Shown in pieces: positions 10,801-62,043 of a stretch of DNA of 64,000 nt. This stretch comes from a virus: the IMG/VR virus record IMGVR_UViG_3300042453_003743, positions 1 to 64,000 of that record; one strand, written 5' to 3'. The position numbers and the translations under genes are program-made. Positions within the stretch are counted from its first letter, which is position 1. Each line of letters starts with the position of its first letter. The notes beneath the pieces were generated by a model. The model was not told where the DNA came from and did not search any database. It worked only from the letters and a program-made list of their open reading frames with translations.

Positions 10801-13800
10801 CATGATTTGAAACGTGGCCAGAGGGTGTGTCAGAATACCATTTCGTGACAACCATATCATCTGTTTTAAACAGTCTTGGATCAAATTTAGAAAGCCATGT
10901 TGCTGCAGCTTGCTTATATGCAGGAGAATCTGTTTCTAGATGTGAAATATAAGCAGTAGTTCCATAAATTGAATGTGCTCTTTTTCTGCCATCTTGATTT
11001 ATAAAATATTCAAATCCTGTAGCACCTGCGATTGCACCGTTGTTGCTGAATAGAACTTGTCTATTTGGTGCATTTGTAGTTGCTGAAGAGCTGCCAGCAG
11101 CACCTTGAACTCCCTGAACACCCTGCGTTCCAGATCCTATTGCTCCTTGGATTCCCTGACGCCCATCCGCCCCCTGAACCCCCTGCCTTCCTTGAACTCC
11201 TTGAACACCTTGAAGCCCCTGAATTCCTTGAATGCCCAGATTTCCCTGAATACCTTGAATTCCTTGTGGTCCTTGTGGTCCTTGAAGCCCTTGAATTCCT
11301 TGTGGGCCTTGAACCCCTTGAATTCCTTGGAAACCTTGGTTGCCTTGCAATCCTTGCAAGCCAATGAAACCTTGTATTCCTATAGAACCTTGTGTTCCTT
11401 GTCTACCTTGAAGACCTTGTATTCCTTGTGGACCGCGACGACCATCATATCCAACTGGACCAACTGCGCCATTATTTCCCTGAACTCCCTGTCTTCCATC
11501 ACCGCCTTGAATACCTTGTATTCCTTGTATACCCTGTGGTCCCTGGACTCCTTGAATTCCTTGTAAACCTTGAGGGCCTTGACGGCCTTGAATTCCTTGA
11601 ATTCCTTGGATTCCTTGGATTCCTTGTGATCCAACAGAACCTTGAATTCCATTAGTTCCTTGGGGGCCTTCACGACCTTGAATTCCTTGAATTCCTTGAG
11701 GGCCTTGGATGCCTTGACGACCATCTGCTCCTTGCAGTCCCTGTCTTCCTTGTATTCCCTGAGTTCCAACAGAACCTTGAATTCCTTGAACGCCTTGTGA
11801 GCCCGAGCCAGCTGCACCCTGTATTCCCTGTATACCAAAAGTTCCTTGGATTCCTTGGACTCCTTGGACTCCTTGGGATCCCGCTCCAATTGCACCTTGA
11901 AGTCCTTGAAAACCTTGTTGTCCTTGAAGTCCTTGAAGTCCTTGAATTCCTTGTGTACCTTGAAGCCCTTGAATTCCTTGTGTACCTTGAACCCCCTGTA
12001 TTCCTTGAATACCTTGCAGTCCTTGTGATCCCTGAACACCTTGTGCACCACTTCCTATGGCACCTTGTGTTCCTTGTCTACCTTGAAGACCTTGTATTCC
12101 TTGCGGGCCTCTGCGACCATCAAAACCTACTGGACCTACAGCACCATTGTTTCCTTGAATTCCTTGTCTGCCTTGAACTCCGTCCCCACCCTGAATGCCT
12201 TGTATTCCTTGTGGGCCCTGTGGGCCTTGAATACCCTGCAGACCTTGTGGGCCTTGACGGCCTTGAATACCCTGTAGACCTTGTGGGCCTTGTAGACCTT
12301 GAATACCCTGTAGACCTTGGGTTCCAGCACCAACAGAACCTTGAATACCAATTTGGCCTTGTGCTCCTTGTATTCCTTGGACACCCTGAGATCCAGCACC
12401 AGCACTTCCCTGAACGCCCTGTCTGCCTTGAAGACCTTGAACTCCCTGTGCACCATTAGAACCCTGTGCTCCAATAGCTCCCTGGGTTCCAACAGAACCC
12501 TGAATTCCTTGGACTCCTTGGAAGCCTTGAACTCCCTGCGACCCAGAACCAATCTGACCCTGTATACCTTGAAGACCTTGTGGGCCTTGTAAACCCTGTC
12601 TTCCTTGAATTCCTTGAGGACCTTGTATTCCTTGTGATCCTTCACGGCCCTGAATACCTTGTATCCCTTGGGTTGCGGCTCCAACAGATCCTTGAATGCC
12701 CTGTATTCCTTGTAAACCGCGACGACCATCAAATCCAACTGGGCCTACGGCACCATTGTTTCCTTGAATGCCTTGTATTCCCTGACGCCCTTGAATTCCT
12801 TGAATTCCTTGCGATCCTGCAGATCCTTGTATTGAAAGACCACCGGCTCCTTGTGTTCCAATGGAACCTTGTATTCCCTGCACTCCCTGAGAACCAGAAC
12901 CTATGGCTCCTTGGATGCCTTGTAGTCCAGCTTGCCCCTGAACACCAACAGAACCTTGAATTCCTTGGGAACCGACACCAGCGCCCCCTTGAATTCCTTG
13001 CAAACCTTGCGTACCTTGACGACCTTGGATTCCCAGTGCTCCCTGAGTTCCCTGTATACCGGATCCAATAGCACCCTGCGTTCCCTGTGCTCCCTGTGTG
13101 CCAACACCTACAGATCCTTGTACGCCAACAGACCCCTGTACGCCAATTTGTCCTTGTATTCCTTGGACTCCCTGTGTCCCAGAACCAATCGCTCCTTGTA
13201 TACCTTGGCGACCTTGTATACCTTGAATTCCTTGTTGTCCTTGAATTCCTTGCGACCCAGAACCAGCAGAACCCTGAATTCCCTGTGTTCCAGAACCAAC
13301 AGCACCCTGGACACCCTGTATTCCTTGCGGGCCTCTGCGACCATCAAAGCCTACTGGGCCTACAGCACCATTGTTTCCTTGAATTCCTTGCGATCCTTGG
13401 ATTCCCTGTGTGCCCTGACTTCCCGCTCCAGCAGAACCCTGAATTCCAATTTGCCCTTGGATGCCCTGACGACCCTGAACACCTTGTGAACCGATACCCA
13501 ATGATCCTTGAATGCCCTGTGCACCACCCGAACCTTGAAGTCCTTGTACGCCTTGTATTCCTTGAGAACCATTTTGGCCTGCAGAACCTTGCAACCCGGA
13601 AGAACCTTGAAGCCCTTGAACTCCCTGAGAACCAGAACCAGCTTGGCCTTGTATTCCTTGTCTTCCCTGTGCTCCTTGGATTCCTTGTAGTCCTTGTATT
13701 CCCTGCGAACCATTTTGTCCAGCGTTTCCCTGTATTCCTTGTGAACCTGCACCAGCAGAGCCCTGAATACCAATAGTTCCTTGGGCACCAACAGAACCCT

Positions 13801-15259
13801 GAACGCCTTGTGTTCCCGATCCTATTGCGCCTTGAATTCCTTGACGACCTTGTACCCCCTGTGCTCCAACTGCTCCCTGTGCGCCAAGTGTTCCTTGGGC
13901 ACCAAAAGATCCTTGCGCTCCAACAGAACCTTGAACTCCTTGCACCCCCTGCACACCAGATTGCCCCTGTATACCTTGGGCACCTCTTCGCCCATCAAAT
14001 CCTACAGGACCTACTGATCCCGGGATACCTTGAGCTCCAGTGCCGCCTTGAATTCCTTGCGGTCCTTGTCTTCCTTGAACTCCTTGTAGCCCCTGAGAAC
14101 CTTGAACTCCTGCACTACCAGCAACTCCTTGCAATCCTTGAGCCCCAACAAGTCCCTGAATGCCCTGCAGACCAGATGAACCCTGCAGCCCAGCAAAGCC
14201 TTGAATTCCCTGAGAACCAAAGCCAGCGGATCCTTGCAATCCTTGAAGACCTTGAGCGCCACCTGCGCCTTGTATTCCTTGACGACCTTGAATTCCCTGT
14301 ACACCTTGAACACCTTGAACACCTTGGGATCCATTAGATCCGGCAGAACCTTGTATGCCTGCAGATCCTTGAATGCCCTGAGAACCAACGCCAGACGATC
14401 CTTGTAAACCTTGAACACCTTGGGTTCCCTGTGTACCTTGTCTTCCTTGAATTCCCTGAGCACCATTTATACCTTGTAAACCAACAGAACCCTGTAGTCC
14501 CTGTGCTCCTTGTGAGCCATTAGTTCCTTGAATTCCTTGAATACCTTGCGGGCCTCGACGCCCATCAAATCCAACGGGTCCAACTGCTCCGGGGATTCCT
14601 TGCAATCCTAATGATCCCTGTGTTCCCTGACTTCCTTGTATTCCTTGGGACCCAACAGACCCCTGAAGTCCAGAAGATCCTTGAATTCCAGCAAACCCCT
14701 GAATACCCTGAGCACCAGTATTTCCAAGAGAACCATTTGAACCTGCACTACCTTGAAGACCGATAGACCCCTGAATACCTTGCGATCCAAAGCCTGCAAC
14801 ACCTTGAACGCCTTGAACACCCTGTGTGCCCACAGTACCCTGACTGCCCAAAACTCCTTGCACACCCTGTGTTCCTTGTGTACCACGGCGACCGTCGAAT
14901 CCTGCGGGACCAACAGATCCTATAAAACCTTGGTTGCCTTGGACACCTTGAACACCAAGAAAACCTTGTATTCCTTGAATTCCCTGAATACCTTGAACAG
15001 TCTGTACGTTTAAATATGCTACATTCCACACCCAATTTCCAGGTGTGCCGGTGAGATAATAGTATGTTGTATTTGCTACAACATATACAATCATACCCAC
15101 CTCTCTGCGCTCGTCTGGAATGCTGTCTCTATCAGCGAGAGTGGCAACAGTTCTTAGACCACCTAATCCATATATTGGTTTAGTAACAGGATAAGTATCA
15201 GTCGAATCAAACGGACTGATGAAACCTCCAATTGGTACTCCACCTGGTATTTCAGCCAT
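7856..15259 (-). CDS. Giant modular collagen-like fibre protein (2467 aa)
   Basis: Residues 1-90 are a globular N-terminal virion-attachment type domain. Residues about 90-1385 are an almost unbroken Gly-X-Gln collagen-like array (GIQG, GVQG, GSQG, GRQG) punctuated by the module marker [10 protein letters not shown]. Residues about 1385-1883 are a globular insertion that contains a dockerin/EF-hand-like loop (D-x-N-x-D-G-x-V-x-x-x-D near 1740-1760). Residues about 1883-2078 are a second collagen array with one more GYDGRRG marker, and 2078-2467 a cysteine-containing globular C-terminal domain, likely the receptor-binding tip. No prolyl-hydroxylase substrate pattern is obvious because Gln, not Pro, dominates the third position. 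It is one intact reading frame despite the extreme repetition. Neighbouring collagen-like genes suggest a multi-part fibre. Confidence 0.85.
9025..9610. repeat. Second collagen-coding repeat tract
   Basis: Short tandem degenerate 9-nt units encoding Gly-X-Gln triplets inside the giant fibre gene. Near 9060-9200 an about 50-nt unit (CCTTGTGGGCCTTG...CCTGTAGA) is repeated almost identically at least three times. One GYDGRRG marker lies near 9300-9325. The tract is coding and is expected to vary in length by slippage or recombination. Confidence 0.8.
11100..15000. repeat. Main collagen-coding repeat tract with spaced GPVG(F/Y)DGRRG modules
   Basis: About 3.9 kb of coding DNA made of degenerate 9-nt units (complements of CCTTGAATT/CCTTGTATT and variants). 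The unique marker encoding [10 protein letters not shown] or close variants recurs near 11437, 12108, 12720, 13340, 13990, 14555 and 14893. The spacing is mostly about 560-670 nt, the last interval being shorter. This suggests block duplication of roughly 200-residue modules. Confidence 0.8.
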
Positions 15260-16717: not shown

Positions 16718-17938
16718 TTATAATTTTACAGTCTGAGCCTTCTCTAGATCTACATTTAGAGTAGTTTTATTCTCTAAATTTTTAATTTTTTGTTCCTGTT
16801 CGGCTTTCATTTTTTCTTGATTTTGATTAAATTCTGCAATAGCCTTTAAGTAGACTTCTTTATTTTTTTCAATTCTTGGTCGGTGTTCTTCTGGCATGTA
16901 AGGCTCCGATAGAAGTTTTTCACATGCTGCTAGACCCATATGAATTTTTCCAACATAAAATGCTGTTGTAGAAATTTCATCCAAAATTCCCCATTGATAT
17001 ACTGCTTTGTCAACAAACAAAATATCATCTTTTGGAATGGGAATCGTCAATGCCTGAGCAGCAGCCATAAACGCGTTTCTTGGTCTTTCGTATTTTCTAT
17101 AGATGCAAGAAAGGTGATACAGCGCTTCGGCGCGATTTGGCCTTGCTTCATAAGATCTTAAGAAAGCATCGGTAACTTGTTCTTGTGGCTTGCCCATGAT
17201 CTCACGGCATATTCCAACACGAATCCAAGAATAGAACACTTCTTCTGGCCAACTTCCCATTTCAATTCTTCTAAGATATTCTTTTTCAGCTACTTCAAAA
17301 AGCTGCGCATCAAATGCAGATTGTGCTGCATAGAATTGCTTTCTCACTGAAGAAGGATCTTTTTCAAGATATTTTTTTAGTAAGAAGTAATCTCTCGCGT
17401 ATTTTTCTCTGTCACTATTAACTTCTCTTGAACGACAACCCTCAGTACGAACGTTCCACGAATAATTTCCTTCAAGTCTCTCAACCTTCATTGGCTGTTC
17501 GCAAATTGCGTATTCGTGCAAAGGCTCTTCGTACCACCAAAGTTTTTTGGCAAGATTGAAGACTTGGGCGCGATACCATACCATATTTCCACGGGAAATT
17601 TTTACAACATAACCATCTAGATCATCATTGAAAGAATCTACAGGAAGTGTTCCTTCGATAGTGTCGTCAGCATCAATCATCAGAGCCCATTTTGTTTTAC
17701 CATGACAGTGCTTTAAAACTTGTGACCGATTTGTTCCAAAGTCTTCCCATTTATGATCTAAAATTTCACCGGGAATGTTTTTCTTTTCAAAAAAATCTTT
17801 GATTAATTGTTTTGTGTTATCTACAGATCCGGTGTCTGCGATTACATAATAATCAATATATGGTGCGACTGACTCCAAGCATCTTTCGATATTTGGAGCC
17901 TCATTTTTTACGATCATTGCTAATGTTAATTTGTGCAT
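16718..17938 (-). CDS. Family 2 glycosyltransferase with TPR-like C-terminus
   Basis: The N-terminal GT-A domain starts LTLAMIVKNEAPNIERCLES, has the donor-binding ADTGSVDNT strand near residue 36 and a DxD metal site (MIDADDT) near residue 90. The C-terminal half contains helical repeats (ALYHLSCIYRKY..RNAFMAAAQAL) of TPR type and ends with a coiled Glu/Lys-rich tail. Such proteins transfer sugar to an unknown acceptor. Start choice: the in-frame ATG at 17944 sits directly against an AAGG, while the ATG at 17938 has that AAGG at normal spacing, so 17938 is preferred. It is the last gene of the replication operon, 3 nt after RegA, and is followed by a terminator. It may act with the sugar cluster at 24-32 kb. 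Confidence 0.8.
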   Translation of the reverse strand: MHKLTLAMIVKNEAPNIERCLESVAPYIDYYVIADTGSVDNTKQLIKDFFEKKNIPGEILDHKWEDFGTNRSQVLKHCHGKTKWALMIDADDTIEGTLPVDSFNDDLDGYVVKISRGNMVWYRAQVFNLAKKLWWYEEPLHEYAICEQPMKVERLEGNYSWNVRTEGCRSREVNSDREKYARDYFLLKKYLEKDPSSVRKQFYAAQSAFDAQLFEVAEKEYLRRIEMGSWPEEVFYSWIRVGICREIMGKPQEQVTDAFLRSYEARPNRAEALYHLSCIYRKYERPRNAFMAAAQALTIPIPKDDILFVDKAVYQWGILDEISTTAFYVGKIHMGLAACEKLLSEPYMPEEHRPRIEKNKEVYLKAIAEFNQNQEKMKAEQEQKIKNLENKTTLNVDLEKAQTVKL

Positions 17939-19714: not shown

Positions 19715-20386
19715 TTAACCTCGCTTAGTACCGATATAGTAGGTAAGGTTTTGAGTTTTGTGAGAAAACTTTGTAATAACAGTTTCTGTCAAAGAAACGG
19801 AATAGGACCCGGGAACAAATTTAATTTCAGAAACGTTTAACATTCCATCATAATCTGGTCCGTTGTAATTTTCATCAATGATTACAGTAAAGCTGTTTGA
19901 TGTATCATTAGTTTCATCATTTACTATAATTTTTAGAACTCCATCTTCTCCCAAAATTTGTACATCGCTAACCTGAAGAATTCTTGAGGCTTTTAAAATT
20001 TCATTTAAATCATTTTCATCCAAATCAAATGATACCAAAACGGGAGGCATTTTAAAGTCCTTTGTGGGAACAGTCAAAAGCTCCGGTTCACTATAATAAT
20101 AACGAACAGATGAACGCCCGTTCGAAATGTCAACATAGTTTTCATTAAATTCTAAATCTGGATTTGCAAACATGCTAACAATTCCCAAAAATTTATTCAA
20201 ATCCCAAATAGAAATTTCAGTCTCAAACTCTTCCTGAACTTTTGCTTCCGCATAGGTATTTTTTTGTGGTGAAACTGTTTTAATAACATTTCCAGGTTTA
20301 ATTAAAATGTTTGAGTTAATTTCTGAAAAATTTTTAAGAAAAGTATATGTTTCTTTAGATAGACGCATTTTAGTCACGGTTGTCAT
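19715..20386 (-). CDS. gp45: DNA polymerase sliding clamp gp45
   Basis: At 223 residues it is close to T4 gp45 (228 aa). The start MRLSKETYTFLKNFSEINSNILIKPGN and later EFNENYVDIS and FVPGSYSVSLTE blocks match the clamp family. The clamp gives processivity to the polymerase and in T4 also acts as the mobile activator of late promoters through gp33 and gp55, both present in this window. AAGGAAAACTATG supplies a good ribosome-binding site; its start lies inside the end of the 55-aa gene (17-nt overlap), suggesting coupled translation. Confidence 0.93.
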   Translation of the reverse strand: MTTVTKMRLSKETYTFLKNFSEINSNILIKPGNVIKTVSPQKNTYAEAKVQEEFETEISIWDLNKFLGIVSMFANPDLEFNENYVDISNGRSSVRYYYSEPELLTVPTKDFKMPPVLVSFDLDENDLNEILKASRILQVSDVQILGEDGVLKIIVNDETNDTSNSFTVIIDENYNGPDYDGMLNVSEIKFVPGSYSVSLTETVITKFSHKTQNLTYYIGTKRG

Positions 20387-20567: not shown

Positions 20568-20852
20568 TCAAGTTTCAATCCACTGAGAACTGTCACCGTC
20601 TTTTTGCCAAACATATTTTATCCCGGCACCAGATACCCAAAGTTGTCCTACTATAGGATTTATAGGTGGATTTTCTGAATAATAAACTTCTGTATTTCCT
20701 GCATATTTCCAATACTTGCTATTTTGTAATGGGGAAAGGGTGGTTGTACGAATACATTGATAATGCTTTCCCTGAAAAGAAATTATTTCTCCAGGAAAAT
20801 AGTTTTGTGGTTTGCCACTTATTGTTTTGAATTCAAATTCTCCGCGAAACAT
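20568..20852 (-). CDS. Small carbohydrate-binding-like late protein (94 aa)
   Basis: Residues about 18-52 (FPGEIISFQGKHYQCIRTTTLSP...YWKYAG) match the pattern of type 3 chitin-binding/CBM5-12 modules: Gly-x-x-Val/Ile-x-Tyr/Phe-x-Gly-x-x-Tyr-x-Cys...Trp-x-x-x-Gly. Residues about 58-94 (NPPINPIVGQLWV...YVWQKDGDSSQWIE) match a short motif common at the ends of phage fibre proteins. A perfect TATAAATA late promoter sits 5 nt before the ATG, while all neighbours are replication genes. So it is probably a small virion or adhesion protein carried within the early operon but expressed late. No catalytic residues are seen. Confidence 0.65.
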   Translation of the reverse strand: MFRGEFEFKTISGKPQNYFPGEIISFQGKHYQCIRTTTLSPLQNSKYWKYAGNTEVYYSENPPINPIVGQLWVSGAGIKYVWQKDGDSSQWIET

Positions 20853-20857
20853 AAAAA

Positions 20858-20865
20858 TATTTATA
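20858..20865 (-). promoter_or_regulatory. Late promoter TATAAATA abutting a start codon
   Basis: Perfect TATAAATA on the minus strand, overlapping the gp46 stop and ending 5 nt before the ATG at 20852. With a start point 6-8 nt downstream, transcription would begin at or next to the ATG. Confidence 0.7.
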
Positions 20866-22582: not shown

Positions 22583-23625
22583 TCTTCATCCTTGGACAGA
22601 GCACTATTATACGCTGAGTTTATGATCTCTGCAAGCATATTTTTGTTTACGCTTGTTTCGGTAATAGTGTCCAGTTCTTCGTGGAGCAATTGAAGCGTGT
22701 CCTTGTGAATATCCACCGCAACCAATTCAGGATTTGCCGTGACTTCCTCTGCAATCTGCAACTCTGCCACACCGGCCTCATAAAACTTATCCATAAATTT
22801 TTCAAACTGGTTCTGTTTTGTTCTTTTCTTAATAAAAATTTTAACGTACTTATCTTTAAAATCTGAATAATTCAGTTTTGGGATTTCGTCTTCGTTATAA
22901 TCAAACGTATAGAAAAGTTTTTCTGTATTTTGGATGAAATCAAGCGTCCTACTCTTAAAGTCAAATACGTGAAACCCCTTTTCCTCCCAAACGTCCGAAT
23001 AAGCCATTTGATATTGTGTGCCGAGATAATAAATGTTATCGCGGCTAGACTTAACATGATAATGCCCACTAAGAACATACTCAAACTTGTTGAAGTGCTT
23101 ATGGTCATAGCCCTGCTCCACAGATACACCACGAATACTTTGAAATCCACATAATTCTAAATGACCCAACAATATTGAACAAGATGTATTTTGTATGAAC
23201 TCGTATACATGAGATTCATTTTCTGGATTTATCCAAGGCAAAAGTGCCACGCACCCGTCTTTTAAATTTATCTCTGTTGGTTCAGAATATACAGTCCAAT
23301 TTGAATAATGAGAAACCAATTCATCTAAAGAATTTACTTTATTAGTATTTCTAAAAAATGTATCATGATTACCACAAATAATGTGGACTCTTATACCCAT
23401 CTCTCTTAAAGGTTCAAAAAACCTTTCTCTAACAAAATTTAATGTTTTAAAATTAATATATTTTCTTCTATCAAAAAGATCGCCTAAATGGAATATCGTA
23501 GTAATATTGTTGTTTTTAACATATGGAAACAACTGATTTTCAAAAAAAGAAAGTGTGTGTTCCAAGACAATAGTAGAATCAGCTTTGTAACCAAAATGTG
23601 TATCGTTTAGTATTACTGCTTTCAT
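22579..23625 (-). CDS. gp47: Recombination nuclease subunit gp47 (Mre11/SbcD-like)
   Basis: Calcineurin-type phosphoesterase with its metal-binding series in order: NDTHFG (about 7), GDLFDRR (about 48), GNHDTF (about 85), GHLE (about 152) and SGHYH (about 185). 348 residues against 339 in T4. It pairs with gp46 to process double-strand ends. It overlaps the upstream gp55 stop and the downstream gp46 start by 4 nt each, forming a tightly coupled operon. No missing catalytic residue was noticed. Confidence 0.96.
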   Translation of the reverse strand: MKAVILNDTHFGYKADSTIVLEHTLSFFENQLFPYVKNNNITTIFHLGDLFDRRKYINFKTLNFVRERFFEPLREMGIRVHIICGNHDTFFRNTNKVNSLDELVSHYSNWTVYSEPTEINLKDGCVALLPWINPENESHVYEFIQNTSCSILLGHLELCGFQSIRGVSVEQGYDHKHFNKFEYVLSGHYHVKSSRDNIYYLGTQYQMAYSDVWEEKGFHVFDFKSRTLDFIQNTEKLFYTFDYNEDEIPKLNYSDFKDKYVKIFIKKRTKQNQFEKFMDKFYEAGVAELQIAEEVTANPELVAVDIHKDTLQLLHEELDTITETSVNKNMLAEIINSAYNSALSKDEE

Positions 23626-24203
23626 ATGTCAAAAATGTCCAATTTTGATTTTCTTTTCTTTTTAATTTTTTCTTTCTTTTCTTTCTTTTGACCCAACATC
23701 TCATCAAATCGTTCCATATCAGAATCAGTAAGTCCAAAAAAATCTTTTCTACCAATATCTACCCCAGCATAAACTTCATTAAACCAATTTTGGAAGTCTT
23801 TATTATTTTGTTGTTCTGCAAACTTATATTGTGTATATTTTTCTTTCTTTTCTTTGTTTATTATACGAACAAAAGAAAACCAGCATATTTGGGTTAGGTA
23901 ACCAAATGGGCTGGTTGAAAGTTTTGGATCAAAGTTATCTATGTATGTTATACAATTTAATACACCATCTGATACCATTTCTTCTCTGTATGGATAATTT
24001 GCAAAATTAGGTCTATAAGAAAGTCTTGATGCTATCTTTAATATACATTCACCGATATAATCTGGCAACTTTGGTTTTTTGCGTCCTGCATTCTCTGCAT
24101 CTTTTAACTTTTTTTTATATTCAACCAAAGCATTGTAAAGCTGCTGATTATCGACATAATCAGCATCTGATGGTTTGGCTTTCTTTTTCTTTAGTTTTTT
24201 CAC
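23622..24203 (-). CDS. gp55: Late-promoter sigma factor gp55
   Basis: A 193-residue homologue of T4 gp55 (185 aa), a minimal sigma-family protein that directs host RNA polymerase to TATAAATA late promoters. Recognisable blocks are DYVDNQQLYNALVEYKK, ILKIASRLSYRPNFANYPYREEMVSDGVLNCI, IDNFDP, and PFGYLTQICWFSFVRIINKEKKE (sigma region 2-like). The N- and C-termini are Lys-rich. The start is a GTG at 24203; there is no in-frame ATG near it and no clear Shine-Dalgarno. A near-consensus sigma70-type promoter ends 6 nt before the GTG, so the message may be leaderless. It is the first gene of the replication operon. Confidence 0.93.
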   Translation of the reverse strand: MKKLKKKKAKPSDADYVDNQQLYNALVEYKKKLKDAENAGRKKPKLPDYIGECILKIASRLSYRPNFANYPYREEMVSDGVLNCITYIDNFDPKLSTSPFGYLTQICWFSFVRIINKEKKEKYTQYKFAEQQNNKDFQNWFNEVYAGVDIGRKDFFGLTDSDMERFDEMLGQKKEKKEKIKKKRKSKLDIFDI

Positions 24204-32263: not shown

Positions 32264-32701
32264 ATGAATCTAGAGAACCTTAAAGAACTTATTATTAAAG
32301 ACTCTCAAATAGACTCTACAGAGTTAGGTATAGAGTCTCTTAAGATACCTCAAATACATTCTAAGTATCTTACAATTTTATCAGATGTCAAATTACTTTT
32401 GACAAAGCAACAAAGCGATCTTGCCATATTAAAACTTCGCAAATGGAAAATTTATACAGGAAAAGCCTCACAGGAGGAGCTTGAATCTTGGGGCGAAGAG
32501 GCTTGTGACTTTACATTGTTAAAAAGTGATGTTGAACAGTTTGTAGAAGCTGATCCGAAAGTAATAGAACTAAAATCAAAAATTGCTGTCAGCGAAGTTA
32601 AACTTCGTATGGTAGAAGAGTTTATAAAATCCGTAAATAACAGAAATTTTATGATAAAATCTGCTATTGAGTGGCAAAAAATGATGAACGGCATAGTATA
32701 A
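32264..32701 (+). CDS. uvsY: Recombination mediator UvsY
   Basis: A 145-residue homologue of T4 UvsY (137 aa): MNLENLKELIIKDSQIDSTEL matches the T4 start block, then HSKYLTILSDVKLLL, WKIYTGKASQEELESWG and a helical C-terminus ending FMIKSAIEWQKMMNG. UvsY helps load UvsX recombinase on gp32-coated single strands. Very short predicted leader and no clear ribosome-binding site. Codons 16-25 contain an 8-bp inverted repeat (32311-32318 with 32331-32338). Its stop overlaps a late promoter for uvsW. Confidence 0.92.
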   Translation: MNLENLKELIIKDSQIDSTELGIESLKIPQIHSKYLTILSDVKLLLTKQQSDLAILKLRKWKIYTGKASQEELESWGEEACDFTLLKSDVEQFVEADPKVIELKSKIAVSEVKLRMVEEFIKSVNNRNFMIKSAIEWQKMMNGIV

Positions 32702-32704
32702 ATA
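32697..32704 (+). promoter_or_regulatory. Late promoter TATAAATA at the uvsW start
   Basis: Perfect TATAAATA across the uvsY stop codon, ending 4 nt before the uvsW GTG. T4 uvsW is known to be a late gene, which supports function. Confidence 0.7.
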
Positions 32705-32708
32705 TTGA

Positions 32709-34205
32709 GTGGATATAGATGTTGAATCTACAGATGAAGTTAGATATTATGTAAAAGCCGAAAAAGGACTAAAACAAGAACTGAGAGATTACTTCTCATT
32801 CATGGTCCCCGGAGCCCAATATATGCCTTTATATAAAAAAAGGATTTGGGATGGAAAAATTCGTCTTTATGATATTTTATCGTCTACATTGCCCAGAGGG
32901 CTAAAAACATATTTAAATAAATTTTGCCAAGAACGTGGATATAGCTTAAATATAAAGGAGAGCAAAAATCCTTTATGCGTAACAGAGGAGGAACTTCAGG
33001 CTTTCTACGAATCACTGAAAGTTTGCGTCCGCAAACAACCAGTAAAGATGCACACACATCAGGTGCAAGCTATTATGCATGGATTGAACAATCATCGTTC
33101 AGTTCTGATATCTCCGACTGGCTCTGGAAAAAGTCTTATTATATACGTATTGGTTCGATATCTACAAAAGGTATTAAATACCGACCGCAAAATATTGATT
33201 TTAGTTCCAACCGTTGGCCTCGTCAATCAGATGGAGGCCGATTTTTTTGATTACTCAAGTCAAGATAAATCCTGGTCCTGCAAAAAGTATATTCACAAGA
33301 TATCTGCTGGTGCAGACAAAGAAACAAAGAAACAGATAGTAGTCTCGACATGGCAATCAATCTACAAATTGCCTAGAGAATGGTTCGATCAGTTTGATGC
33401 CATATTCTTTGATGAGTGTCATCAAGCAAAAGCAGAATCAATCAATTTCATCGGACAGAAACTGACCAAGGCTTGGTTCCGTTGTGGTACAACAGGAACA
33501 CTACAACAAACACAGGCACACAGATTAAGCATCGAAGGAATTCTTGGTCCAGCTGTTCAGTTCATCCAAACAAAAAACTTAATGAACAAAGGGTTACTTG
33601 CAACACTCGGTATTGATTGTATTCTATTGAAATACACAGACGAAGAAAAACAGCTGTTAAAAAAACAAAAATATGCAGATGAGATAAAATGGATCATAAG
33701 TAATGATAAGAGAAATGAGTTCATCTGGCAACTGGTCTCCAGAACAAAGGGCAATGCGCTTGTACTCTTCAATTATGTTGAAGCGCAAGGCAAGCCTCTC
33801 TACGAACTTTTCAAAGAAAAAGCGGGAACACGCAAGGTCTATTTTATCTCAGGTAAAACAGAAGCAGAGGCGAGAGAGTACATTCGAAGAATTATTGACT
33901 CTGAAAAAGATGCCATTCTGGTGGCGAGTTACGGTACAACTAGTGCTGGCATTAATATCGTTAATCTTGATAATATTGTTTTCGCCTCTCCTACAAAATC
34001 CGTAATTCGTTTACTACAAAGCATTGGTCGTGGATTAAGAGTTTCAGAAAAGAAAAAAACATTGAAGGTGTTTGATATTGTTGATGATCTATCTTGGAAG
34101 TCACACAAGAATCATGTATACAGACACTTTGAAGAGCGTATAAAAATTTACAAAAAAGAAAAATTTGATTACAAAATATATTCGATGCCTTTTACAGAAA
34201 CTTAA
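32709..34205 (+). CDS. uvsW: UvsW RNA-DNA/branch-migration helicase
   Basis: 498 residues like T4 UvsW. The N-terminal double-strand-binding part (DYFSFMVPGAQYMPLYKKRIWDGKIRLY) precedes a superfamily 2 helicase core with Walker A SPTGSGKS at 135-142, DECH at 235-238, TGTLQQTQAHR, and the C-terminal QSIGRGLR near 440. UvsW unwinds R-loops and migrates branched DNA, shifting replication from origin- to recombination-dependent mode late in infection. The start is GTG: the frame is closed by TGA just upstream, and MDI matches the T4 N-terminus. It has no Shine-Dalgarno, only the promoter 4 nt before it. Confidence 0.95.
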   Translation: MDIDVESTDEVRYYVKAEKGLKQELRDYFSFMVPGAQYMPLYKKRIWDGKIRLYDILSSTLPRGLKTYLNKFCQERGYSLNIKESKNPLCVTEEELQAFYESLKVCVRKQPVKMHTHQVQAIMHGLNNHRSVLISPTGSGKSLIIYVLVRYLQKVLNTDRKILILVPTVGLVNQMEADFFDYSSQDKSWSCKKYIHKISAGADKETKKQIVVSTWQSIYKLPREWFDQFDAIFFDECHQAKAESINFIGQKLTKAWFRCGTTGTLQQTQAHRLSIEGILGPAVQFIQTKNLMNKGLLATLGIDCILLKYTDEEKQLLKKQKYADEIKWIISNDKRNEFIWQLVSRTKGNALVLFNYVEAQGKPLYELFKEKAGTRKVYFISGKTEAEAREYIRRIIDSEKDAILVASYGTTSAGINIVNLDNIVFASPTKSVIRLLQSIGRGLRVSEKKKTLKVFDIVDDLSWKSHKNHVYRHFEERIKIYKKEKFDYKIYSMPFTET

Positions 34206-34238: not shown

Positions 34239-34889
34239 ATGTCCGAATCGCTTCCTGAGAATTCTTTCTCAGGCGTACTAAAAGTTGTTAAACTGCTCAC
34301 CGGAGAAGAAGTGGTTGGTTTGGTGAGTGAACCTACGCCAGATAAAATTTTAATAAAATTGCCAGCAAGGCTGGATAATTATTACACAAAAACTGAAAAA
34401 GAGGGCATTGTTGAATACGTTAAATTAACAAACTATTTTGTAAATTTAAACTCTCAAGAAGCATCTTTTTTCAAGACAGCGGTGGTCTATATCGGAGATC
34501 CATCTCTTGAACTTCAAAAAATGTATGAAGTATATTTTCTGGCAATGCAAACTGATCCAAAATCTTTATTAGAAAATATGCCTGCAAGCGAAAATAATAC
34601 AGACAACGGATTACAGCTTTTAAACGATTTGTTTAATAATGAAGATTTTGTAAATTTTGTAAATGATTTGATTGAAACTTATGAAGATTCAGAATTGTTT
34701 GAAGATGATGGAGAAGAGGAAGTCGTAGAACTGGATATGGAAGAGGCTGAACAAGAACAGCCCAAAGCCCAACCAAAGCCAAAGAAACGCACCAGAGTCA
34801 AACCAGAAACGAATAAGCTACCATACAATCCAGAGCAGCCACCAGAAAACCCCGAAAGCTGGTCAGATAATCCATCTGACTATATTTAA
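34239..34889 (+). CDS. Acidic conserved-type phage protein with SH3/Sm-like N-terminus (216 aa)
   Basis: Not recognised as a T4 protein. Residues about 10-60 (GVLKVVKLLTGEEVVGLVSEPTPDKILIKLPARL) look like a small Sm/SH3-type beta barrel. The centre is helical and acidic (LNDLFNNEDFVNFVNDLIETYEDSE, EEEVVELDMEEAEQEQ), followed by a Lys/Pro-rich KAQPKPKKRTRVK segment and a Pro/Asn tail. Start choice: an ATG at 34233 is only 2 nt from GGGAGG, whereas 34239 has 8-nt spacing. It converges on the minus-strand tail gene with 4-nt stop overlap. Its position after uvsW suggests a replication or assembly helper; function unknown. Confidence 0.65.
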   Translation: MSESLPENSFSGVLKVVKLLTGEEVVGLVSEPTPDKILIKLPARLDNYYTKTEKEGIVEYVKLTNYFVNLNSQEASFFKTAVVYIGDPSLELQKMYEVYFLAMQTDPKSLLENMPASENNTDNGLQLLNDLFNNEDFVNFVNDLIETYEDSELFEDDGEEEVVELDMEEAEQEQPKAQPKPKKRTRVKPETNKLPYNPEQPPENPESWSDNPSDYI

Positions 34890-35413
34890 GCAGTATTTTT
34901 TAGATTTGAAGGTGCGTCTGGGGTAATAATATAATGTGAATATTTAAATCTACAAACGGCCTTTTGTATTATTACGTCTGAGCTATCAGACTGAAAAGAA
35001 AACCCCCCAAGTTCTACTGGAATTATATGATAAAATTTAAATGTTGTGGGTGTTGTTTCATTAAAACCATCATATATCAATAAATTTGCCTGATGATGCC
35101 AATCTTGATACTCAAGATTATGGTCTGTATCTGTATCGATGTTTGTTAAATTTCTTATCCAAGAATACAAATTTTTCCAATTTTGTAAATTTGAATCTAC
35201 AATAAATTCAACAGTCAGTGGAGCAAATTGTATTGCATGGGTTGGGATTGGAATAGTTGTTCCAAGTGTTGTGGGCTGCGGTTGTTCTCCAATTGATATT
35301 CCCGGAACATTTACTTTTTGGCAAAGCAATTCCATTTGTTTCAAACCTCTACCAAAAATTAATCTGAAATAACTGTTATATAATGGGTTTAAGTTTGGAG
35401 AACAAGTTGTCAT
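34886..35413 (-). CDS. Tail-tube-fold protein next to the capsid gene (175 aa)
   Basis: Reads like the gp19/tail-tube superfamily: NSYFRLIFGRGLKQMELLCQKVNVPGISIG, HAIQFAPLTVEFIVDSNLQNWKNLYSWIRNL, FKFYHIIPVELGGFSF. The VNVPGISI and FxVDSxLxNW blocks are typical of tube, tube-initiator and tail-terminator proteins. Its length (175) and place beside gp23 also fit a gp3-type tail terminator, so gp3, gp54 or a gp19 paralogue remain open. A CATAAATA late promoter ends 5 nt before the ATG. It lies downstream of the gp23 terminator and so forms its own transcription unit. Confidence 0.65.
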   Translation of the reverse strand: MTTCSPNLNPLYNSYFRLIFGRGLKQMELLCQKVNVPGISIGEQPQPTTLGTTIPIPTHAIQFAPLTVEFIVDSNLQNWKNLYSWIRNLTNIDTDTDHNLEYQDWHHQANLLIYDGFNETTPTTFKFYHIIPVELGGFSFQSDSSDVIIQKAVCRFKYSHYIITPDAPSNLKNTA

Positions 35414-35418
35414 AAAAA

Positions 35419-35426
35419 TATTTATG
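35419..35426 (-). promoter_or_regulatory. Late promoter CATAAATA abutting a start codon
   Basis: CATAAATA on the minus strand, 5 nt before the ATG at 35413. There is no room for a ribosome-binding site; a leaderless message is predicted. Confidence 0.65.
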
Positions 35427-35434
35427 GTAAAACA

Positions 35435-35462
35435 AAAACCTCCCGATTACTCGGGAGGTTTT
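35435..35462 (-). terminator. Rho-independent terminator after gp23
   Basis: 12-bp perfect inverted repeat with a TTAC/GTAA loop, CTCCCGA/TCGGGAG core and flanking A/T runs, 22 nt after the gp23 stop. The flanks would also allow termination in the other direction. Confidence 0.85.
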
Positions 35463-35484
35463 CGAAAGAGTTAATTTATACTAT

Positions 35485-36915: not shown

Positions 36916-36923
36916 TATTTAGA
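36916..36923 (-). promoter_or_regulatory. Late promoter (TCTAAATA) for gp23
   Basis: TCTAAATA on the minus strand, 27 nt before the gp23 ATG, with a good AGGAGA at 36899-36904 between. Part of the class with a normal leader. Confidence 0.65.
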
Positions 36924-37959: not shown

Positions 37960-37967
37960 TATTTATA
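37960..37967 (-). promoter_or_regulatory. Late promoter TATAAATA for gp22
   Basis: Perfect TATAAATA, 26 nt before the gp22 ATG with a Shine-Dalgarno between. A good internal standard for normal late promoter spacing in this genome. Confidence 0.75.
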
Positions 37968-43824: not shown

Positions 43825-43832
43825 TATTTAGA
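43825..43832 (-). promoter_or_regulatory. Late promoter (TCTAAATA) for gp18
   Basis: TCTAAATA on the minus strand, 22 nt before the gp18 ATG, just after the gp17 stop, with AAAAGG between. Normal-leader class. Confidence 0.6.
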
Positions 43833-50503: not shown

Positions 50504-51331
50504 TTATCCTATTAAGGGATCAACCGGTAGCTCTTGTGTTTTCAAGAGTGTTGCTTCTATTTCAGCAAGTTCTCTTACTGCATCCGACATCATTGCACCG
50601 GCATTTAACTGGGCTCCACCCGGCAAAGGAATTCCAGAAAACTTCATCAAATTTTGAGCCCACTGTTTTTTAAGAATAGCAGAAAAATATAATTTAAAGA
50701 CACGATCATTCCATATGTTTGGGTATTTTTCTGGATCTATTTTAACATATGTTTCTAAAAGAATATATTTTGTGCTAGAAAGTTTTGTATAGTCTGTTTC
50801 TAAGAAAAGCCTATTTGTTGTTTTGGTGTAAGTATAAGACATTGGATAATTAAAAATATTATCAACGTTGTTTATATAAGACATGGCTTCTATGTAAGAA
50901 GCCAGCGGTGCCATTGGATAACCAGTTTGATTAAAGTATATTCCAAAAAAATCAAATAAAGTCATCTGATATCTTAAATCAAACATGTAGTCCCCAATAG
51001 GATGGCTGGGTGCATATACTTTGCTAACAGTTCTTATGTCTTGCGCTCTTGGCCAATAGCCAGTAGATCCGTCTGCAAACGTTCTTAACTGAGCACCAAT
51101 TGCATCACCAAACGTAGAGACATCGAAAAATTTTTGAGCAATTTCTTGATTTGATACTTGGTGTGCAAACAAGGCTCTTTGATTAAAATCAAAATGCCTG
51201 TCGTACATATATTCTAGGGCTTCGTCCAAACGATCTTCAATTTGTTGGCTATCTACGTTTACCTGTATAACGGGATGCCCCAAATGTCTTAAGGTATAGT
51301 CAATAAATTCTTGTCGGTTTGCAATGGCCAT
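50504..51331 (-). CDS. gp13: Neck protein gp13
   Basis: 275 residues (T4: 309): FIDYTLRHLGHPVIQVNVDSQQIEDRLDEALEYMYDRHFD is the conserved N-terminal block, and the C-terminus PEKYPNIWNDRVFKLYFSAILKKQWAQNLMKFSGIPLPGGAQLN is also diagnostic. Forms the connector ring under the portal. A CATAAATA late promoter ends 5 nt before the ATG, with no Shine-Dalgarno, so the neck operon is predicted to begin as a leaderless message. Confidence 0.95.
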   Translation of the reverse strand: MAIANRQEFIDYTLRHLGHPVIQVNVDSQQIEDRLDEALEYMYDRHFDFNQRALFAHQVSNQEIAQKFFDVSTFGDAIGAQLRTFADGSTGYWPRAQDIRTVSKVYAPSHPIGDYMFDLRYQMTLFDFFGIYFNQTGYPMAPLASYIEAMSYINNVDNIFNYPMSYTYTKTTNRLFLETDYTKLSSTKYILLETYVKIDPEKYPNIWNDRVFKLYFSAILKKQWAQNLMKFSGIPLPGGAQLNAGAMMSDAVRELAEIEATLLKTQELPVDPLIG

Positions 51332-51336
51332 AGAAA

Positions 51337-51344
51337 TATTTATG
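51337..51344 (-). promoter_or_regulatory. Late promoter CATAAATA abutting gp13
   Basis: CATAAATA on the minus strand, 5 nt before the gp13 ATG. No ribosome-binding site fits between. Confidence 0.65.
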
Positions 51345-52402: not shown

Positions 52403-53469
52403 AAGCTATAAGTTATTTTTATGCCAGCTGGGGCTTTATCAGCTAAATATGCCATAAGGGATGTTTGACCACTGACGCTTAATCCAGTAACATATATCTT
52501 TACTTCTCCGGGCAAACCGCTTGTCACTGTTATTTTTGTAAGGTCATCCGTGCCAGATATATTTGATGCTAAAATTGCATTTTTATAATCATTTATCGTA
52601 ACACATCTTTCATAACCAGTTACTTTAAAATTTAATCTATTTTTTGCTTGTTTGAGGTCTAAAAGATCGTAACCTCCAGCTGGAGAGTCGGTAGTCCCAA
52701 AACTAATGTCTGATCTCGCATTTATAACAGCGCTATTGCCAATACTCCCATTTGACTGTATTCCGGTCACCGTTACTCTATATCTTGTAGTGATGTCCAT
52801 TGCTGTGGGCAAATTGGTTGTAACTACATACCCAAGATTGCTGTTTTTGATTACATAATGTTTATTATTTGTTGTTGTTACTTTTGAAATGTTTGTAACT
52901 TCTGTCCACAATTCAGTTGTATTTGTATACGTATCAGTAACAGTAAAAGTTACTGTTTCTGGATCTATAGTATAAGGTATTTCAATTGATTTGGTGTTAT
53001 AGTCATACTCATTATATGAATACACTAAACCAGAATAAAGGGATTCGGTGACACTCGTATTTGGCAAAATTTTATTTTTATTGAAAAAATAAATTTCAGA
53101 ACCTTTAGTCGTAGTGGCTGTAAAAGTTGAATAAGCTTCTAACGTAATACCACCAGTAGTGATTGTTCTTGTTGTTTTTGCTGTTTTTGTTGGTTCAAGC
53201 AATACCTGAGAATTTGATGCAATACCCAGCAAGCCATTCAAATTTGTGCACGTTGAAGCAAATGTGTTCAGATAGCCATATTGTGCATAAACTCCATTGT
53301 AAGCGGTCGCAGTGGCAAGTATGTTTATCAACATGCTTATAGCACTAGCAGGATTATCATAATCTAGATCAGAAATATCATCTTGTTTTTTAAAAAAAGA
53401 TATTAATGAAGATTTTATATTATTAAAATCAAGAGAAGCTACATTTAATTTTTTAAGATCATAAGCCAT
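52399..53469 (-). CDS. gp6: Baseplate wedge protein gp6 (356 aa)
   Basis: N-terminus NVASLDFNNIKSSLISFFKKQDDISDLDYDNPASAISMLINILATATAYNGVYAQYGYLNTFASTC is the gp6/baseplate J-like block that binds wedge partners. The C-terminus NFKVTGYERCVTINDYKNAIL..VTSGLPGEVKIYVTGLS is the conserved gp6 dimer part. Start choice: ATG at 53469 overlaps the gp25 stop (TAATG) and has GAGG upstream; an 8-residue longer reading was rejected. Much shorter than T4 gp6 (660), as expected for a reduced middle. Confidence 0.88.
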   Translation of the reverse strand: MAYDLKKLNVASLDFNNIKSSLISFFKKQDDISDLDYDNPASAISMLINILATATAYNGVYAQYGYLNTFASTCTNLNGLLGIASNSQVLLEPTKTAKTTRTITTGGITLEAYSTFTATTTKGSEIYFFNKNKILPNTSVTESLYSGLVYSYNEYDYNTKSIEIPYTIDPETVTFTVTDTYTNTTELWTEVTNISKVTTTNNKHYVIKNSNLGYVVTTNLPTAMDITTRYRVTVTGIQSNGSIGNSAVINARSDISFGTTDSPAGGYDLLDLKQAKNRLNFKVTGYERCVTINDYKNAILASNISGTDDLTKITVTSGLPGEVKIYVTGLSVSGQTSLMAYLADKAPAGIKITYSL

Positions 53470-53849
53470 TATATTTCTACCTCGACAAAACAAGACGATT
53501 TGTTTTGATTGTGAATTTTAGTCATTGTAGTATAGTCAACTTTAAATTCAATGTTTGAATCAGTAAAAGATAAAATATTTACACTAACATTTGTCAAATA
53601 GTATATTTGTGAATGTATATCTGCAGCCAACTTTATTTGAACAACTCCAGCATCTATTTTACCACCAAATATATAATTAAAATAATCTGATCCTAAATTT
53701 TTATCACCAGGCAATTCTCCTTTTTGAGTCTTTGCAACTTGCTCTACATATTGGCTAATTGCATTAAAACCAGTAACAAACCCCACATCTTTTTTTGATG
53801 ATGGTGTATTCAATTTTTTAAGTGTAATTTCAAAATCTTTAATAGCCAT
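53469..53849 (-). CDS. gp25: Baseplate wedge protein gp25 (126 aa)
   Basis: A gp25/lysozyme-like wedge protein of 126 residues (T4: 132): DFEITLKKLNTPSSKKDVGFVTGFNAISQYVEQVAKTQKGELPGDKNLGSDYFNYIFG includes the EPR-like start and the GE(L/R)xxxxxLGxxxxxxLF block. It joins wedge to sheath start. Start choice: ATG at 53849, because a TATAAATA promoter ends 5 nt before it and the longer reading runs through the promoter. No Shine-Dalgarno. Confidence 0.88.
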   Translation of the reverse strand: MAIKDFEITLKKLNTPSSKKDVGFVTGFNAISQYVEQVAKTQKGELPGDKNLGSDYFNYIFGGKIDAGVVQIKLAADIHSQIYYLTNVSVNILSFTDSNIEFKVDYTTMTKIHNQNKSSCFVEVEI

Positions 53850-53854
53850 CAAAA

Positions 53855-53862
53855 TATTTATA
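53855..53862 (-). promoter_or_regulatory. Late promoter TATAAATA abutting gp25
   Basis: Perfect TATAAATA, 5 nt before the gp25 ATG, immediately after the stop of the upstream hub-like gene. A leaderless message is predicted. Confidence 0.7.
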
Positions 53863-57565: not shown

Positions 57566-58384
57566 TTATTGATTCATCGCAGAAATTTCAGACTTAGAAT
57601 ATACGCCACCGGAACCATAACTGTCTGCGCCTCCTGGAACGTAGGTGCCAGTTTCAAATTCGGTAAACTGCAAACCCAGTAACGTCACAGATGACGTGCC
57701 GTTAGGTAAATATCTGACAACCGGATCTGCATTATCATTTCTTTTTACCATGACAGTATTTAGAACACATACTAGGGGTTCACCCAACCAGTCTGCGGTA
57801 AGATCATCTTCATTACCAAATCCAACTGCGCCATTTCCTTTTGTAATTTTTAAAGACCATAAACTTTGTGGATATGATCTTTCTGGTAAATTTGAAGCAA
57901 GAACCGGATATGAAGACTTTCTAAAAGAACCAACAATCTGTTCCACAGCCTCTGCCTCATCAGAGTTTTTTGGAACAAAGATGTATTGGAAAAAATACTG
58001 TTTTCTTGCTTCCGAAATCATAGACATTTCAGCTATATTGCTGAATCTTCTATAGGTTGATGTGGCAAAAACTCTTTCATAGTAAGACATAGCCGGAGCA
58101 GCCATTCTTTCAAGCTGTCTGAGAATACCACCACTCCCAGCATTTGCTATACCAGCCTTTGTTAGGATCGGACCTACGGGGTTGCTGTTGCTTTCGCCAA
58201 ATTCGTGTTGGGCAACATAACCCGGTTCTTTTGCCAACGGCAATTTTATGTGGTTAAATGCTCTAGAAATTATGTTCCAGCGAGTTCTCTGAGTATTAAT
58301 CAATGAATAGTCGGCAGCAAAAAAGTTTAACCACAGTGGTTGTTCTGAAGCATAATTGCCTAAAGGGTATTGAAAGAAAGCCAT
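57566..58384 (-). CDS. gp48: Baseplate tail-tube cap gp48
   Basis: 272 residues (T4: 364). The middle (YYERVFATSTYRRFSNIAEMSMISEARKQYFFQYIFVPKNSDEAEAVEQIVGSFRKSSYP) is the tube-like domain typical of gp48/gp54, with a helical insertion before it. The C-terminus GLQFTEFETGTYVPGG carries an LQFTE strand of the same family. Together with gp54 it starts tail tube growth. A TCTAAATA late element ends 6 nt before the ATG, facing the divergent gp4 promoter. Confidence 0.78.
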   Translation of the reverse strand: MAFFQYPLGNYASEQPLWLNFFAADYSLINTQRTRWNIISRAFNHIKLPLAKEPGYVAQHEFGESNSNPVGPILTKAGIANAGSGGILRQLERMAAPAMSYYERVFATSTYRRFSNIAEMSMISEARKQYFFQYIFVPKNSDEAEAVEQIVGSFRKSSYPVLASNLPERSYPQSLWSLKITKGNGAVGFGNEDDLTADWLGEPLVCVLNTVMVKRNDNADPVVRYLPNGTSSVTLLGLQFTEFETGTYVPGGADSYGSGGVYSKSEISAMNQ

Positions 58385-58390
58385 TTTAAA

Positions 58391-58398
58391 TATTTAGA
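58391..58398 (-). promoter_or_regulatory. Late promoter TCTAAATA abutting gp48
   Basis: Minus-strand TCTAAATA, 6 nt before the gp48 ATG. One half of a compact divergent late promoter pair. Confidence 0.55.
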
Positions 58399-58405
58399 TA
58401 AATAA

Positions 58406-58413
58406 CCTAAATA
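58406..58413 (+). promoter_or_regulatory. Late promoter CCTAAATA abutting gp4
   Basis: CCTAAATA, 5 nt before the gp4 ATG at 58419. A second plus-strand match, GATAAATA at 58397-58404, overlaps the opposite promoter. Confidence 0.55.
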
Positions 58414-58418
58414 TTTTG

Positions 58419-58838
58419 ATGGCATATAAAACAAAATATAAACCCATAAATAGGGAAAAATATGTGGGTGATATAGAAACCATTACATGCCGTTCACTTT
58501 GGGAACGCTCTGTATGCAAGTTTCTGGATGAAAATGAAAACATATTAAAATGGTCTTCTGAAGAATTGGCAATTCCATATGTCAACCCATTTGATAAAAA
58601 AATTCATAACTACTATCCAGATTTTTTAATACAATTCAAAGAAAAAAATAATTTAAAAAATTGGATAGTGGAAATAAAACCCAAAAAACAAACGCTTCTA
58701 AAAGAAAATGCATCTAAAAAAGAAAAAATTACTTGGCTAATAAATCAAGCAAAATGGAAGGCAGCTGAAGCTTATTGTTTGAAACATAATTTTGAATTCA
58801 AACTCCTAACCGAAAAAGAGATATTTTCTAATGGCTAA
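58419..58838 (+). CDS. gp4: Head completion protein gp4
   Basis: 139 residues (T4 gp4: 150). MAYKTKYKPINREKYVGDIETITCRSLWERSVCKFLDEN, then IPYVNPFDKKIHNYYPDFLIQFK and WIVEIKPKKQT reproduce the T4 block order (WxPxNxxKYxGDxxxIxYRSxWE; IEIKPKKET). The fold is endonuclease-like, with a PD-x-n-E-x-K type triad (YPDF, EIKPK). It finishes the head for tail joining. Start set to the ATG at 58419 rather than the preceding TTG. Confidence 0.94.
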   Translation: MAYKTKYKPINREKYVGDIETITCRSLWERSVCKFLDENENILKWSSEELAIPYVNPFDKKIHNYYPDFLIQFKEKNNLKNWIVEIKPKKQTLLKENASKKEKITWLINQAKWKAAEAYCLKHNFEFKLLTEKEIFSNG

Positions 58839-62035: not shown

Positions 62036-62043
62036 TCTAAATA
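62036..62043 (+). promoter_or_regulatory. Late promoter (TCTAAATA) for the right-end structural unit
   Basis: TCTAAATA, 24 nt before the ATG at 62068 with AGAGGAT between. Normal-leader class, divergent from the gp33 promoter. Confidence 0.6.

Follow-up and report, generated by a model that had tools for sequence, protein, structure and literature searches.

The late genes of this virus very probably form two conserved sets that are served by one kind of T4-type late promoter but differ in how their mRNAs begin, one set being leaderless or nearly so and the other being led by a Shine-Dalgarno (SD) sequence. The actual 5' ends and the route of translation are predicted here from promoter position. 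Late transcription of T4 is a textbook system, in which the presence of a leader and an SD sequence is simply assumed. Promoter and start codon appear to be joined, always in the same subset of genes, in a large uncultivated clade and in isolated pelagiphages. The virus record comprises 137,341 bases, of which bases 1-64000 constitute the window, i.e. the whole stretch of 64,000 nucleotides; its relevant features are collected in Table 1.

Table 1. Late elements, genes behind them and factors of late transcription in the window
Feature	Position	Strand	Remarks
Late element TATAAATA	53855..53862	-	5 nt before gp25 ATG at 53849; predicted +1 = 53849
gp25 baseplate wedge, predicted leaderless	53469..53849	-	family profile: T4 gp25 E=1.6e-8, HTVC008M gp25 5e-6
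Late element CATAAATA	51337..51344	-	5 nt before gp13 ATG at 51331
gp13 neck protein, predicted leaderless	50504..51331	-	tblastn to gp13/neck proteins
Late element CATAAATA	35419..35426	-	5 nt before gp3 ATG at 35413; directly downstream of hairpin
gp3 orthologue, predicted leaderless	34886..35413	-	family profile (hmmsearch): T4 gp3 E=3e-14, HTVC008M gp3 3e-16
Terminator-like 14-bp hairpin and U tract	35433..35464	-	between gp23 and gp3 promoter; MFE -23.1 kcal/mol, z -6.0
Late element TATAAATA	20858..20865	-	5 nt before ATG at 20852; overlaps end of upstream ORF
94-aa ORF (CBM-like in the earlier note), predicted leaderless	20568..20852	-	
Late element TCTAAATA	58391..58398	-	6 nt before ATG at 58384; half of divergent promoter pair
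272-aa ORF 58384 ('gp48' in the earlier note), predicted 1-nt leader	57566..58384	-	
Late element CCTAAATA	58406..58413	+	5 nt before gp4 ATG at 58419; other half of the pair
gp4 head closure protein, predicted leaderless	58419..58838	+	phrog_218 head closure E=1.7e-48
Late element TATAAATA	32697..32704	+	4 nt before uvsW GTG at 32709; overlaps uvsY stop codon
uvsW helicase, predicted leaderless from GTG	32709..34205	+	phrog_9690/phrog_16 helicase E about 1e-90
Late element TCTAAATA	36916..36923	-	27 nt before gp23 ATG at 36888; SD CAGGAG
Late element TATAAATA	37960..37967	-	26 nt before gp22 ATG at 37933; SD AAGGA
Late element TCTAAATA	43825..43832	-	22 nt before gp18 ATG at 43802
Late element TCTAAATA	62036..62043	+	24 nt before ATG at 62068; SD GAGG
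gp55-type late sigma factor	23622..24203	-	tblastn: HTVC008M gp55 2e-38, S-PM2 gp55 5e-41
gp45 sliding clamp	19715..20386	-	tblastn 3e-51; Pfam gp45-slide_C

Throughout the record, 47 NATAAATA and 26 NCTAAATA elements were found, many of them before structural genes. No conserved -35 box is apparent, since the 14-base stretch ahead of the element shows only a general A/T richness (224 sites), and tblastn identified homologues of both the gp55 sigma factor and the gp45 clamp. An earlier note on this DNA had placed such elements immediately ahead of seven start codons, and all seven are present with these positions and distances. The shuffle control that it had proposed was run on the whole record (200 dinucleotide shuffles in 500-base blocks): in 15 of 73 cases, an element and the ATG behind it are separated by exactly 5 nt, whereas the shuffles averaged 2.05 such cases and never exceeded 7. 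Distances of 0-4 nt, on the other hand, are depleted (3 observed vs approximately 10 expected). Starts called by a self-trained ORF model include 12 with an element at 5 nt. The record itself contains 11 cases at 10-19 nt, which renders the gap between the two classes less clean than among its relatives. Outside the window, about eight further candidate members of the short class were detected (80484, 80522, 100407, 101269, 104653, 106309, 107814 and 109818). At 100,407, 107,814 and 106,309, the spacing points to a different start than that chosen by the coding model, namely the ATG 5 nt past the element.

The relatives comprise 80 loci obtained from an IMG/VR scan with gp13, and removal of near-duplicates yielded a spacing set of 32 loci (437 kb). 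In these, the distances between element and ATG are bimodal: 90 cases fall at 5-9 nt and approximately 38 at 20-32 nt, but only three at 10-19 nt and one at less than 5 nt; because the relatives share common ancestry, all such counts represent non-independent events. Distances of 5, 6, 7, 8 and 9 nt account for 35, 20, 9, 21 and 5 cases, respectively, so that the distribution breaks off sharply below 5 nt. None of 14 permuted motifs yielded more than 7 cases at 5 nt, as opposed to the 35 of the real motif. Moreover, each gene has its own class. Wherever the start could be read in a relative, gp3, gp4, gp13, gp25, 58384 and 20852 belong to the short class, and gp18, gp22 and gp23 are long throughout. 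Counted over distinct upstream sequences of the relatives, the element stands at 5-9 nt before gp25 (29/29), gp13 (33/33), 58384 (18/18) and gp4 (15/15) and at 5 nt before gp3 (4/4), and it was found at 7 nt before 20852 in 5/5 relatives; the 20-32 nt class holds for gp18 (24/24), gp22 (8/8) and gp23 (4/4) as well as for 6/8 cases of 62068, the remaining two being devoid of an element within 40 nt. At gp13, CATAAATA is located 5, 8 or 9 nt upstream in 79 of 79 loci inspected, in three of which the true ATG was taken upstream of the tblastn match. The genes gp14 and 51764, both internal to an operon, have no element within 40 nt. A coincidence in A+T-rich DNA, or mere genome compaction devoid of translational meaning, would be in line with the tiny intergenic gaps and with those elements that overlap neighbouring genes, yet this explanation is extremely improbable: the peak is reproduced neither by shuffles nor by permuted motifs, on which grounds chance and A+T richness were rejected, every gene keeps its class across deeply diverged relatives, and T4, despite a similar G+C content, is without a short class.

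Two of the gene identities initially proposed were revised or left unsupported. The 'tube-like' gene at 35413 is actually an orthologue of gp3, as judged by family profiles (Table 1), and the assignment of 58384 as gp48 could not be confirmed, since no match was obtained in PHROG, Pfam, T4 or HTVC008M. Likewise, the 94-aa ORF at 20852 has no PHROG match.

The position of the predicted transcription start follows from T4, in which the first T of the late box is numbered -13 (Geiduschek and Kassavetis, PMC2988020). The element consequently extends from -13 to -6, and +1 corresponds to the sixth base past it; hence, with a 5-nt spacer +1 coincides with the A of the AUG, and spacers of 6-9 nt leave leaders of 1-4 nt. 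The former claim of a start at or within the start codon thus holds for the 5-nt genes, which are predicted to be exactly leaderless, but has to be modified for the 6-9-nt genes with their predicted leaders of 1-4 nt. At spacings of 6-9 nt the predicted +1 lies outside the ATG, and here purines make up 88%, 91% and 96% of the sixth bases where the ATG is at 6, 7 and 8-9 nt, respectively. A purine occupies the same position in 73% of the T4 elements (A in 62%) and in 86% of those of Syn9 plus S-PM2.

A corresponding layout was encountered among genes of an early type outside the window. Positions 81,000-96,000 of the record exhibit about 45-60% G+C, vs approximately 36% for the genome, and carry some 18 single genes, each of which is preceded by TTGACA-N17-TANNNT-N6-ATG. 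In this region and 15 relatives found via its peptidase gene, sigma70 promoters (at least 5/6 matches to TTGACA, a spacer of 16-18 nt and TANNNT) end exactly 6 nt ahead of the ATG 158 times and 7 nt ahead of it 20 times, any other distance being represented by 0-23 cases, and the 6-nt peak is gone when the -35 boxes are scrambled. With a -10 box ending at -7, +1 therefore again falls on the A of the AUG. In 92% of cases, the early ATG is preceded by a C, which fits a pyrimidine-purine start site. No sigma70 peak at 6 nt was observed in T4 and Syn9. In addition, the first codons of the early genes are rich in CA/AC (0.34 vs 0.14 further in), in agreement with a report that CA repeats stimulate leaderless translation (PMC9031893), although codons or protein sequence may be responsible instead. 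A chimeric assembly of the G+C-rich region was considered and rejected: one relative contig (G006) bears both the region's peptidase gene and gp13, and the region is hence regarded as the phage's own. Its CobS-like and peptidase genes also occur in S-PM2 and HTVC008M. The notion of two translation modes among late genes is supported but proves too narrow, as the sigma70-driven early genes display the same layout.

It might be argued that transcription starts elsewhere, i.e. upstream of or within the late element, and that the latter acts partly as an A/U-rich ribosome site on a short leader; some bacteria such as Flavobacterium use A/U-rich upstream regions without SD sequences, according to one report (PMC6847099). 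This alternative is highly unlikely, given that start codons are almost absent below 5 nt and pile up at exactly this distance, that T4 and cyanophages share the purine peak at position 6, and that the independent sigma70 promoters show a matching edge at 6 nt together with the C at -1.

The regions upstream of the start codons differ accordingly between the classes. As had been claimed before, the near-start genes are devoid of SD sequences (called at a match of at least 4), with 0/20 cases in the record and 0/89 in the relatives, but this follows in part from the element itself occupying -13 to -6 and does not constitute independent evidence. Among 38 long-class starts of the relatives, 92% feature an SD sequence, and purine-rich SDs were found for gp22, gp23, gp18 and 62068, in agreement with the good RBS claimed before, as were the spacings given for them (Table 1). 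The 5' ends of the ORFs are weakly structured, with a mean of -2.1 kcal/mol for the first 40 nt vs -4.2 kcal/mol inside the same ORFs (p=4e-13). The start codon of the short class is ATG almost throughout, the exception being the conserved GTG of uvsW. In 5/5 relatives the element is situated exactly 4 nt before this GTG, so that coincidence or an outlier was rejected as an explanation of the spacing; in one of them (L159), the element lies outside uvsY and the 4-nt layout is nevertheless retained. A purine start on the G of the GTG would render uvsW leaderless, too.

Further support for the promoter-start fusion is provided by sites at which a leader could hardly be accommodated. In front of gp3, promoter and ATG directly follow the terminator-like hairpin, which was not flagged by a consensus terminator scan but is visible in the fold, and relatives of gp3 carry a similar sequence with a G-rich arm and T-tract at this position. 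Analogously, gp2 of the isolated phage Mosig exhibits a hairpin-like repeat (read by eye), the element, 5 nt and the ATG in succession. The divergent gp4 and 58384 have 34 nt between their start codons, a gap filled by two back-to-back elements, and the pair is kept in relatives with 32-38 nt. Joins of terminator, promoter and ATG, as well as divergent pairs at 22-38 nt, therefore leave no space for a leader, and a fusion of promoter and start would account for divergent genes with about 22-38 bp in common.

The closest spacing was observed in two relatives (L153, 4478-4501; L146, 4890-4913), in which divergent start codons are 22 nt apart and the late elements overlap in a near-palindrome; in L153 they read CATGAAATTATTTATAAATATTTTCATG, a minimal two-way promoter. 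Outside the window, the predicted leaderless genes at 80,484 and 80,522 diverge with 37 nt between their start codons, and their proteins begin alike (MAYLTEYYKNK and MDYLTNYYKNL), which suggests an inverted duplication of the promoter plus an N-terminal segment.

The same sites bear on the question of whether the proteins are mainly made from longer read-through mRNAs by coupling or re-initiation, with little contribution of the near-start promoter. The ATG of gp25 is less than 20 nt past the stop codon of the upstream gene on the same strand, and the elements of 20852 and uvsW overlap the end of the upstream ORF; gp25 and 20852 hence follow a same-strand gene so closely that coupling could produce them as well. 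On the whole, however, this origin is unlikely, because read-through from a same-strand upstream gene is impossible at the divergent pairs 58384/gp4, 80484/80522 and gp2/gp4 of HTVC008M, gp3 lies behind a strong hairpin, and coupling leaves both the sharp 5-nt peak and the purine at position 6 unexplained.

According to the preferred reading, a sigma factor of the gp55 family would recognize the elements as T4-type late promoters with the aid of gp45. In the short set (gp3, gp4, gp13, gp25, uvsW, 58384, 20852 and others), the promoter would be fused to the start codon, and transcription would begin at the A of the AUG (5 nt), 1-4 nt ahead of it (6-9 nt) or, in the case of uvsW (4 nt), at the G of the GUG. 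The resulting leaderless or near-leaderless mRNAs would enter the leaderless route, presumably by 70S ribosomes engaging the 5'-terminal start codon. In the long set (gp18, gp22, gp23 and 62068), the same promoter 20-32 nt upstream would direct a gp55-dependent start 15-27 nt before the start codon and thus a leader with an SD sequence, so that both initiation routes may operate side by side. This interpretation is favoured by the shuffles, the bimodal spacing, the gene-by-gene class and the purine at the predicted +1.

In T4, the capsid, scaffold and sheath proteins are abundant and assembly proteins are low-copy. By analogy, the leadered set would correspond to abundant, high-copy virion proteins and the leaderless set to low-copy assembly proteins. 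A two-mode programme, in which most early (sigma70) genes and low-copy late assembly proteins use the leaderless route and capsid, scaffold and sheath use SD leaders, is a tentative extension that is somewhat less likely than not; the route might then set protein stoichiometry and respond to changes in ribosomes or initiation factors during infection. Phage ribosomal protein S21 was considered as a leaderless switch and discarded, as it was not found in this genome, although HTVC008M has one. At a practical level, the fusion of promoter and start should improve the calling of start codons and promoters in such phages.

Two scans for phage genes inside bacterial genome contigs, performed to find a host, retrieved no relative. 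The record contains ten tRNA genes outside the window and none within it. A permuted two-piece tmRNA is encoded at 101,335-101,613 (-) of the record (17335-17613 of locus L010; RF04321, 81.8 bits), a form already known from marine phages (PMC9004378). Within the structural region of the window, a single ORF of 2,467 aa spans 7856-15259 (-).

Late promoters of phiKZ possess a TATG motif, at the G of which transcription begins, and phage transcripts have been described as often leaderless, in contrast to AR9, where leaders measure 26-491 nt (PMC5312081). The jumbo phages of the phiKZ group thus resemble the present virus in starting close to a start-codon-like sequence, but they encode a multisubunit RNA polymerase of their own and rely on an unrelated promoter. 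Among bacteria, Caulobacter crescentus harbours 375 leaderless mRNAs, which are translated about as well as leadered ones (PMC4117421). These also share a 5'-end AUG, the lack of an SD sequence and an unstructured 5' region with the genes described here; on the contrary, they are cellular genes behind host promoters rather than targets of a phage late sigma factor. In view of the efficient translation in this alphaproteobacterium, a host that handles leaderless mRNAs well is plausible.

Among T4-like phages, HTVC008M included, no report of leaderless late genes was found in the literature covered, which comprised few subscription papers, nor was a paper on start-site mapping in Syn9. For pelagimyophages, late-promoter prediction was reported to be unsuccessful (PMC7029224), and in the paper on Melnitz 15 late promoters are listed, whereas leaderless genes go unmentioned (PMC9004378). 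T4 itself, whose late promoters are served by gp55, gp33 and gp45, shares with the present virus the same 8-bp TATAAATA-type element without a conserved -35 box, an A/T-rich stretch past the element, gp55 and gp45, and a purine at the position that is predicted as +1 here. Unlike here, where NCTAAATA variants are common and many elements adjoin the start codon, none of its 65 NATAAATA elements is located 5-9 nt from an ATG and 23 are at 20-32 nt. At 5-9 nt, Syn9 has no NATAAATA element, the examined part of S-PM2 has one, and the segments of P-TIM40 and S-SRM01 have no element. A weaker peak at this spacing is present in Mosig (7) and Melnitz (4). The short class is hence prominent in pelagimyophages and the present uncultivated clade and not in T4 or the cyanophages examined, and these phages appear to be built around a mode of translation that is rare in their model relatives.

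The closest parallel is HTVC008M (Kyanoviridae), an isolated Pelagibacter phage in which 12 of 64 elements are situated exactly 5 nt before an ATG, including those of gp25, gp4, gp2, gp3 and the tape measure, with gp13 at 8 nt. It likewise features a divergent promoter pair at gp4, although the partner of gp4 is annotated as gp2. Further differences concern the low protein identity (e.g. 46% for gp55, 40% for gp45 and 35% for gp47), the spacer, which reads GTANT instead of the TTTNT found here, and the lack of a clear early leaderless class. HTVC008M on Pelagibacter therefore constitutes an isolated test system for one virus that is predicted to employ two routes of translation initiation at once.
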